In this document: positions 2,079 to 16,769 of the stretch, in pieces
How the letters are laid out: each line of letters begins with the position of its first letter
How positions within the stretch are numbered: the stretch's first letter is position 1
NCBI GenBank assembly: GCA_019359015.1
Contig: JAHHID010000062.1
Coordinates: 1 to 47,696 of the forward strand
DNA length: 47,696 nt
DNA from: Spirirestis rafaelensis WJT71-NPBG6
GTDB lineage: Bacteria; Cyanobacteriota; Cyanobacteriia; Cyanobacteriales; Nostocaceae
Direction of reading: 5' to 3'
Position numbers and translations under genes: made by a program
The notes under the pieces: generated by a model
The model's input: only the letters and a program-made list of their open reading frames with translations
Told to the model about the DNA's origin: nothing
Database searches by the model: none

Positions 2079-2111
2079 AAAAAAAAAGCCCAGAACCTAT
2101 GAGTTCCGGGC
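2079..2111 (-). terminator. aroF leader terminator (attenuator)
   Basis: On the minus strand GCCCGGAAC (2111-2103) pairs with GTTCTGGGC (2096-2088) through nine base pairs including one G-T, with a six-base loop, followed at once by nine T (2087-2079). It lies only about 20 bases upstream of the aroF start and between the leader frame and aroF, so it would stop transcription before the structural gene. Its 5' arm is complementary to sequence at the leader stop codon (see 2105-2147). Confidence 0.85.
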
Positions 2112-2147
2112 GCGTTCGATACATCAGCATGACGCTATTCACCCGGA
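2105..2147 (-). promoter_or_regulatory. Candidate antiterminator pairing in the aroF leader
   Basis: RNA UCCGGGU (complement of 2141-2147, overlapping the leader stop codon) can pair over seven bases with GCCCGGA (complement of 2105-2111), the 5' arm of the terminator. The two foldings exclude each other. A ribosome stalled at the upstream aromatic codons would leave UCCGGGU free and allow antitermination. A ribosome at the stop codon would cover it and let the terminator form. Pairing was worked out by eye, without energies. Confidence 0.65.
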
Positions 2148-2204
2148 GCTTGCCCCGCGCCAAAAGTAAAAACCATAAAACCAGCTACCGAAATGAGTCA
2201 TCAC
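2139..2204 (-). CDS. Aromatic leader peptide upstream of aroF
   Basis: Short frame on the minus strand: ATG at 2201-2199 (or GTG at 2204-2202 directly before it), stop TGA at 2141-2139. AGGAG (2218-2214) lies nine bases before the GTG and twelve before the ATG. From the ATG the product is MTHFGSWFYGFYFWRGASSG, 20 residues with four Phe, two Tyr and two Trp; seven of the eight residues in WFYGFYFW are aromatic. The frame ends just before a strong terminator and then aroF. The peptide probably has no function of its own: its translation would sense charged tRNA-Phe, -Tyr and -Trp. I infer this from composition, ribosome site, position and alternative pairing together. Confidence 0.8.
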   Translation of the reverse strand: MMTHFGSWFYGFYFWRGASSG

Positions 2205-2218
2205 GCTGAAAATCTCCT

Positions 2219-2254
2219 AAAAAAACAAAAAACCGCAGAGTTCGCTCTGCGGTT
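2219..2254 (-). terminator. Terminator of the small RNA upstream of the aroF leader
   Basis: Perfect 10-base-pair stem AACCGCAGAG / CTCTGCGGTT with a four-base loop, followed on the minus strand by six T, one G and seven T. It separates the upstream structured RNA from the aroF leader frame. Confidence 0.85.
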
Positions 2255-2310
2255 CACCGGGCTGTTTCCATTGGGAAACTTGACTCACCCCCGGTGAACC
2301 ACCCTAAACC
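2219..2310 (-). ncRNA. Small structured RNA upstream of the aroF leader, possibly Yfr2/Cyano-1-like
   Basis: On the minus strand, GGTTCACCGGG (2300-2290) pairs perfectly with CCCGGTGAACC (2261-2251). The loop contains an inner hairpin GTTTCC-CAAT-GGAAAC. Directly after it comes a 10-base-pair terminator stem with a GCGA-type loop (2254-2231) and a T-rich tail (TTTTTTGTTTTTTT). No reading frame fits. Two stem-loops with a GGAAAC-containing apical region recall the Yfr2 (Cyano-1) small RNAs of cyanobacteria, but I give that name from memory only. It may be an independent sRNA, or an outer leader of the same aroF transcript. Confidence 0.55.
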
Positions 2311-2497
2311 AAAAATAAAAGTAGGAATTACTGCTTAACATTTGTGCGGTGCAATATTTGTGAAATTTCATGTAAAACTACATTAACAAAGAAATTAACA
2401 CAGCGCCCTAAACGTTGTCAAGGCTCCCACAAGACGAAAAAAGAGTTAAAAGTGAGGAATGAAGAGTTATGAATTAGAAGTTATAAATTATAAATTA

Positions 2498-16696: not shown

Positions 16697-16769
16697 GGGC
16701 GCGTGGCTCAGTGGATAGAGCAACAGATTCCGGTTCTGTGGGTCGGGGGTTCAAATCCCTCCGCGCTCG
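16697..16769 (+). tRNA. tRNA-Arg (anticodon CCG)
   Basis: 73 bases fold into a full cloverleaf. The acceptor arm GGGCGCG pairs with CGCGCTC with one G-T. The D arm has GCTC/GAGC, the anticodon arm ACAGA/TCTGT with loop TTCCGGT and anticodon CCG at its centre, reading CGG. The T arm is GGGGG-TTCAAAT-CCCTC. The discriminator base is G, and CCA is not encoded. A short T-run follows. Confidence 0.95.

Follow-up and report, generated by a model that had tools for sequence, protein, structure and literature searches.

The window, that is, the whole 47,696-nucleotide stretch of DNA analysed here, carries aroF on its minus strand, with its ATG at 2057 and an AGGAG at 2072-2068. The original prediction, made from the sequence alone, had named a DAHP synthase at this position, and the family matches of the encoded protein agreed with it. 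Upstream of aroF, we found a leader with the order promoter, P1, AT1/T1, P2, AT2/T2 and aroF, in which P1 and P2 are short leader peptide frames, AT1 and AT2 are predicted antiterminators, and T1 and T2 are predicted intrinsic terminators (Table 1).

Table 1. Features of the aroF leader and the aroF gene in the window
Feature	Position	Strand	Basis or remark
-35 element TTGACA of the predicted aroF leader promoter	2416..2421	-	reading and conserved position
-10-like element TAATTT of the aroF leader promoter	2392..2397	-	weak match; conserved position
Leader peptide P1, MLSSNSYFYFWFRVVHRG and stop	2285..2341	-	regex and reading in near relatives; no Shine-Dalgarno
AT1 5' arm GTGGTTCACCGGG	2290..2302	-	within the last P1 codons; pairs with 2261-2249
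Small hairpin GTTTCC/GGAAAC	2264..2279	-	directly 3' of the P1 stop, stacked within AT1
AT1 3' arm CCCGGTGAACCGC	2249..2261	-	overlaps the T1 5' arm
Predicted intrinsic terminator T1, stem 2254-2231 and T run	2219..2254	-	terminator scan, conservation
Shine-Dalgarno AGGAG of P2	2214..2218	-	directly after T1; Shine-Dalgarno in 71/76 near sequences
Leader peptide P2, MTHFGSWFYGFYFWRGASSG and stop (20 codons + stop, 8/20 aromatic)	2139..2201	-	frame of the original prediction
Candidate S helix, P2 start region 2209-2199 with post-stop region 2134-2124	2124..2209	-	crosses AT2
AT2 5' arm TCCGGGTG	2140..2147	-	over the P2 stop; pairs with 2112-2105
AT2 3' arm CGCCCGGA	2105..2112	-	overlaps the T2 5' arm
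Predicted intrinsic terminator T2, stem 2111-2088 (GCCCGGAACTCATAGGTTCTGGGC) and T run to 2079	2079..2111	-	scan, fold, covariation
aroF, 289-aa DAHP synthase core without ferredoxin-like domain PF18152	1188..2057	-	NF006421, TIGR01361, PF00793

The half of the leader next to aroF corresponded closely to what had been predicted. The 20-codon frame with its own AGGAG and eight aromatic residues was found as P2. The heptamer over its stop codon was correctly said to pair with the 5' arm of a terminator but had been drawn slightly short, since the pairing comprises eight bases. The strong terminator placed about 20 bases before the gene is T2, whose T run ends 21 bases before the aroF ATG. The proposed folding check also came out as expected, and the 140-nt leader fold beat 200/200 shuffles (z -3.56). 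The prediction had described a single attenuator, however. Its peptide, antiterminator and terminator stood, but they form the second half of a two-unit series, and P1, AT1, T1 and the promoter had been missed. This further unit, upstream of the frame noted earlier, was revealed by comparison with relatives.

A near set was collected by an AroF protein scan of genome contigs and comprised the best 80 of 549 loci, nearly all of which belong, by record title, to genera of the Nostocales. Three of the 80 loci had fewer than 103 nt upstream, and the other 77 together with the window gave 78 assessable sequences. Both P1 and P2 were present in 78/78. P2 was recognised by regex in 77/81 sequences (window included) and by reading in L083, which has one W to L change, the other three being too short upstream; the aromatic codons of the predicted frame were therefore kept in 77 of the 78 by regex. 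P1 was recognised by a strict regex in 65/81 sequences (window included) and by reading in 13 more, with three too short upstream; six of these 13 have VHWE, compensated by a U-A pair in AT1. In near relatives, P1 and P2 were also well conserved beyond the aromatic run. These results indicate that the short upstream ORF with codons for the products of the pathway, as found in attenuators, is present at this locus.

The two frames differed in their start and stop signals. The P1 ATG was at the same codon in 62/65 near sequences, its stop was UGA in 65/65 near and 72/82 distant loci, and a Shine-Dalgarno sequence preceded it in 0/65 near sequences. The P2 start codon yielded 18-25 residues in 76/77 near sequences, and all three types of stop codon were used. 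Several copies of a tandem repeat, CGMGIPARPIDS, were seen between T1 and the P2 frame in L085.

The predicted helices of unit 1 were well kept in the near set. Among 60 near sequences, 98.9% of the cells of the small hairpin and 99.8% of those of the T1 stem were paired, and the T1 stem was equally well paired in 65 diverse sequences. One position of AT1 was C-G in 70, U-A in 6 and unpaired in 2 of the 78 near sequences. The close-set alignment A1 showed no AT1 pair altered on both sides, partly because the strict regex had omitted the six U-A sequences. AT1 and T1 overlap by 6 pairs only, and a partial AT1 is compatible with T1. In unit 2, the T2 5' arm was nearly fixed in the near set while the 3' arm drifted through G-U pairs (18/77 and 20/77 at two positions), a pattern to be expected of a 5' arm that pairs with two partners.

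A further pairing, the S helix, was indicated in unit 2, where it may act as an anti-antiterminator. In the near alignment, 7/12 of its pairs and 28 cells were changed on both sides, values reached by 1/500 (pairs) and 0/500 (cells) shuffles. In the window folded without a ribosome, the S helix had a probability of 0.99 and AT2 one of 0.01, so that S blocks AT2; at the median near locus without a ribosome, the leader codons still held the T2 5' arm (0.98). An S-like helix beat 40 shuffles in 51/77 near P2, 9/74 distant P2, 0/65 near P1 and 4/82 distant P1 sequences, indicating that the S helix is not general in distant genomes and that P1 has no general S-like helix.

We analysed covariation in two alignments thinned by hand of near duplicates, A5 for P1 to T1 (the window and 64 of 83 candidate loci) and A6 for P2 to T2 (the window and 65 of 75 loci). 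In the 65 sequences of A5, 93.8% of AT1 cells were paired, and 7/11 pairs and 40 cells were changed on both sides; the shuffles had means of 4.0 pairs and 13.1 cells and reached the observed values in 1/500 and 0/500 cases, respectively. T1 was 99.8% paired in A5, with 3/7 pairs and 11 cells changed on both sides (both 0/500 shuffles). In the 66 sequences of A6, AT2 was 93.0% paired with 3/8 pairs and 33 cells changed on both sides, and T2 was 86.9% paired with 5/11 pairs and 65 cells; each cell number was reached in 0/500 shuffles. The number of both-sided pairs was not above shuffles for T2 (248/500), and for AT2 it was above neither the shuffles (179/500) nor the slid versions. Since the shuffles keep the relatedness of the sequences, the cell counts are to be judged alongside the slid controls, every one of which had fewer both-sided cells and far lower pairing. 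T2 also covaried in the near set. The results indicate that all four helices (AT1, T1, AT2 and T2) covary across distant genomes, and the compensating changes sought by the original prediction in antiterminator and terminator were seen across the class. In an alignment-free comparison, the tail of P1 paired downstream better than all 50 shuffles in 81/92 loci and that of P2 in 49/86; the pairing was equalled by at least 3 of 50 shuffles in 4/92 loci for P1 and 13/86 for P2.

The aromatic codons themselves were conserved in position. In 82 distant P1 frames, codons -13 to -8 were aromatic in 71, 82, 79, 77, 69 and 66, and in 74 distant P2 frames, codons -11 to -8 were aromatic in 67, 74, 71 and 70, fractions that arise partly by construction because the distant ORFs were chosen by aromatic regexes. 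The distant-set codon and switch counts start at L095 and omit L150, L155, L157 and L172 as well as loci with both regexes on one ORF. TTT, TTC, TAT, TAC and TGG swapped at the same leader positions, and T-rich non-aromatic codons were rare, which favours selection on aromatic residues over selection on a U-rich tract. We also scanned small ORFs upstream of aroF without any regex for a 6-residue window with at least 5 aromatics. Such a window was present in 102/107 class loci, in 0/107 on the reverse strand and in 1.4% of shuffles; the 107 loci were a biased draw, having been found with covariance model R2, which includes the aromatic codons.

The predicted promoter lies upstream of the P1 frame, as expected for a ribosome-mediated attenuator. 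A TTGAC-N16-19-TA...T element upstream of P1, and so of both terminators as the prediction had required, was present in 64/64 near loci and in 78/82 distant ones; the shuffles had a mean of about 1 and a maximum of 4. A generic promoter scan did not include the TTGACA/TAATTT pair in its output and gave another site at 2514-2487. From the promoter-like element, we infer a transcript start upstream of P1, so predicted transcripts should cross both T1 and T2. With the -35 element about 80 nt upstream of P1, transcription would run through two serial attenuators.

The distribution of the leader was determined with two covariance models built from near sequences, R1 (P1 to T1) and R2 (P2 to T2), which were searched against an even sample of 388 genomes of the class, with one match per genome. 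R1 matched in 140/388 genomes (72/160 genera) and R2 in 112/388 genomes (68/160 genera), and by hand count the leader was distributed over 17 family labels of the class. AroF was found at E <= 1e-90 in 149 genomes, in 143 of them with at least 63% identity. In 136/143, R1 lay upstream of aroF on the same strand, ending 64-371 nt before the AroF match; R2 was present in 108 of the 143, either model in 140 and both in 104. In the three without a model match (G230, G281 and G321), one or both leaders were visible on reading. AroF adjoined the R2 match in 108/110 R2 loci read, and the two that were dropped for having no AroF match were a contig end (L185) and a false match (L192). The R2 places in G261 and G279 fall outside these 110 loci, and G261 was read separately (L230). 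Model matches also occurred in five genomes for which the AroF search had given no aroF of at least 63% identity: in G109 and G261, AroF adjoined the leader match on reading (61.9% and 66.7% over the fetched part); in G128, the leader match reached the contig edge; the others were G116 and G299. The R2 match in G299 (E 2e-4) was rejected as chance, as there was no open aromatic frame; the neighbouring reading frame is, we assume, band-7/SPFH-like. In G116, from the same family, the locus L205 (G116:C48) holds a broken aroF remnant with a still recognisable promoter, P1 and AT1, and P2 and T2 were not seen there; remnant and leader are apparently decaying together. By sequence comparison, the arrangement of a tandem leader, in which two leader ORFs each with its own predicted attenuator precede one operon, is found before aroF.

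Some genomes carried one unit only. On reading, P2 and T2 alone were present in G348 and G230 (loci L224 and L206), and P1 and T1 alone in G010, G045, G081 and G314 (loci L209, L210, L211 and L221). By model, 32 genomes were R1-only; among the 15 read, 11 had a diverged P2-like frame (L223 only roughly), and the other four were the genomes with P1 and T1 alone. A diverged P2 with a core such as NWYYGFFYTTGSGLW before the stop was seen in L214, L215, L217, L218, L219 and L222 (genus label g112). In this type, the antiterminator arm seems to occupy earlier codons, and R2 gives no match. Neither R1 nor R2 matched in six genomes with a DAHP synthase of 54-57% identity, and among the four of them that were fetched, three had no leader of the P1/P2 kind. 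In G020 (L226), a different single candidate leader, MKNSQFWYSFTFRSATGVRHRSG and a stop, lies about 370-520 nt before the AroF match and has a strong terminator after it; the DAHP synthase encoded there is of the full-length type, with 54% identity. The L226 leader is perhaps an independent aromatic attenuator.

The genome of the window encodes five PF00793 proteins. The N-terminal, ferredoxin-like domain PF18152 is present in 3/4 of the aroF paralogues (L001, L003 and L004). The paralogue without it, L002, is a DAHP synthase that we take to be of another subtype. We screened eight other loci of the same genome (four DAHP synthases, one pheA and three anthranilate synthase-like PF04715 genes) and found no such leader, in a coarse screen with mechanically placed gene starts. 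An ORF with nine aromatics before L002 and one with five before L237 were considered; neither was trailed by the pattern of the aroF leader. The P1 core pattern occurred once in the genome.

Switching was predicted from how far the last codons of the leader hold the terminator 5' arm while the 3' arm has yet to be transcribed, under the assumption that the ribosome protects 12 nt. A terminator was present after the leader in 65/65 near P1, 77/77 near P2, 82/82 distant P1 and 73/74 distant P2 sequences, so that by sequence an intrinsic terminator of the attenuator type lies between leader ORF and gene. The difference between a ribosome stalled on the aromatic run and one at the stop codon exceeded 0.3 in 65/65 and 77/77 (near P1 and P2) and in 82/82 and 70/73 (distant P1 and P2). 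In all four sets, the median arm holding was 1.00 for the stalled ribosome and 0.00 for the ribosome at the stop. Covariation and this pre-terminator prediction together indicate that the antiterminator excludes the terminator and that the ribosome would switch between them.

We also calculated the equilibrium of the full RNA. With a stalled ribosome, the median P(T) was 0.55 for near P1, 0.70 for near P2, 0.66 for distant P1 and 0.82 for distant P2; with the ribosome at the stop, it was 0.96-0.98. For T2 of the window, P(T) was 0.98 both stalled and at the stop, and AT2 did not win at equilibrium. As yardsticks from E. coli, trpL gave a P(T) of 0.98 in every state, and pheL fell from 0.95 to 0.00. 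Since the terminators often win at equilibrium even when the ribosome is stalled, antitermination would need capture during transcription, including at P2 of the window, and the equilibrium by itself is not decisive.

We propose the following mechanism for each unit. A ribosome would translate the short ORF, in which about six sense codons separate the Phe/Tyr/Trp run from the stop and the final codons also serve as the antiterminator 5' arm. When aromatic aminoacyl-tRNAs are plentiful, the ribosome would reach the stop and cover the arm, and the terminator would form. When they are scarce, the ribosome would stall on the aromatic run and leave the arm free to pair with the terminator 5' arm before its 3' partner has been synthesised, and the polymerase would continue. 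Because the polymerase must clear T1 to make P2 and T2 to reach aroF, the two decisions are expected to multiply. The S helix may favour termination when P2 is untranslated, in the window and perhaps elsewhere in the Nostocales. The series model draws on the anatomy of the leader, its conservation and covariation, the kept codons, the predicted structures and the conserved promoter; from these we infer that P1 and P2 are translated, that ribosomes stall and transcripts terminate, that the leader responds to the charging of aromatic tRNAs and that the two units multiply.

Three other explanations were weighed against this model. P1 and P2 might act through nascent-peptide arrest in the manner of TnaC, with free aromatic amino acid recognised in the ribosome tunnel as the signal instead of tRNA charging. 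The near-relative peptides are conserved beyond the aromatic run and have a fixed tail at the end, which speaks for such arrest, but these tails (VHR/VHL and SSG) are the antiterminator arms and are accounted for by RNA pairing. Moreover, F, Y and W swap at one position, and distant genomes differ in the residues outside the run. TnaC-type arrest by a free amino acid induces a catabolic operon, whereas a biosynthetic gene should go up under scarcity. We therefore regard arrest as very unlikely.

A leader that binds a ligand or a protein (riboswitch, T-box or RNA-binding protein) might control T1 and T2, with the ORFs incidental. AT1 with its inner hairpin is indeed a strong and conserved structure. 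However, no leader match to an Rfam family at gathering score was found in the window, a permissive Rfam scan of the leader gave only matches far below the gathering scores, and by family match the leader is neither a T-box nor a known riboswitch. At gathering score, the window contained a single Rfam match, a plus-strand tRNA gene elsewhere, at 16697-16769. Conservation of the aromatic frames follows codon class rather than nucleotide, and the antiterminator arms fall in the last codons before each stop, which makes a binding leader extremely unlikely. Finally, T1 and T2 are both good terminator matches that might merely release short, stable RNAs accumulating in the cell, with the leader ORFs aiding aroF reinitiation and no conditional control, but this is scarcely credible, as the covarying, mutually exclusive helices predict conditional control and fixed terminators before aroF in most carrier genomes would just silence it. 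The comparison of frames, covariation and promoter thus supports the attenuator reading of the original prediction, and aroF very probably lies behind two ribosome-mediated attenuators in series.

Leader-peptide attenuation is a classical mechanism. Like the aroF leader, E. coli trpL and pheL have a short ORF rich in codons for the end product, an intrinsic terminator and a competing antiterminator. They are single units, whereas the aroF leader has two in series with F, Y and W codons. In stalled trpL and pheL, the terminator arm was not paired with leader codons (0.00), whereas in the aroF leader, the antiterminator arm lies in the last ORF codons; the antiterminator strand of trpL is located after the leader stop.

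We compared the leader with three further systems from the literature. In Corynebacterium glutamicum, aroF is preceded by the aroR leader with Phe-Tyr-Phe (Neshat et al. 2014, as given in PMC11802643; prediction in PMC4046766), and ribosome stalling raises transcription under Phe limitation (PMC11802643). This leader is likewise upstream of a DAHP synthase gene, but one leader with Phe-Tyr-Phe is reported, and the phylum is another. The uORFC-13-1 motif before Acholeplasma aroF, a proposed leader attenuator, comprises a predicted uORF with Phe codon(s), a promoter, an RBS and a terminator (PMC8632094); it has 24 representatives from one named genus and environmental sequences, one unit, and only at least one Phe residue. 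The Salmonella mgtCBR leader shares with the aroF leader two short ORFs, each with its own attenuation-like control, which act independently and additively and were called a singular example by the authors (PMC3641672). As described there, its ORFs respond to different signals (ATP and proline) and precede virulence and Mg2+ transport genes, whereas the aroF units would respond to the same amino acid class. P1 and P2 both carry F, Y and W codons, and differing signals were not obvious.

According to a 2016 paper, reliable data on attenuation in cyanobacteria were lacking (PMC4833913). In the open-licence literature, whose coverage could miss others, we found no report of leader-peptide attenuation in cyanobacteria, Anabaena or Nostoc. 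The kind of mechanism is known, and its tandem form before a cyanobacterial aroF appears new; the comparisons support it strongly, and its function in the cell is putative. If true, no ribosome-mediated attenuator would have been established in cyanobacteria before this one, and, within the literature searched, aroF would be the first gene of amino acid biosynthesis to carry two tandem leader-peptide attenuators for one signal.

The aroF leader offers a concrete case of putative attenuation in cyanobacteria, with covariation in four helices, and may provide a handle for engineering aromatic compounds in these organisms. Its tandem layout raises the quantitative question of what two same-signal attenuators gain over one, for which the natural one-unit leaders are comparison material. 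It also implies that cyanobacterial transcription and translation may be coupled closely enough for leader-peptide control. We consider it reasonably probable that the leader is an old, class-wide cyanobacterial device, in which two serial aromatic-sensing ribosome attenuators multiply to give a bare-core DAHP synthase a switch that is steep or wide in range and the charging of three tRNAs replaces allosteric feedback. Such attenuation would suggest why aroF manages without the ferredoxin-like domain that three of its four paralogues carry.
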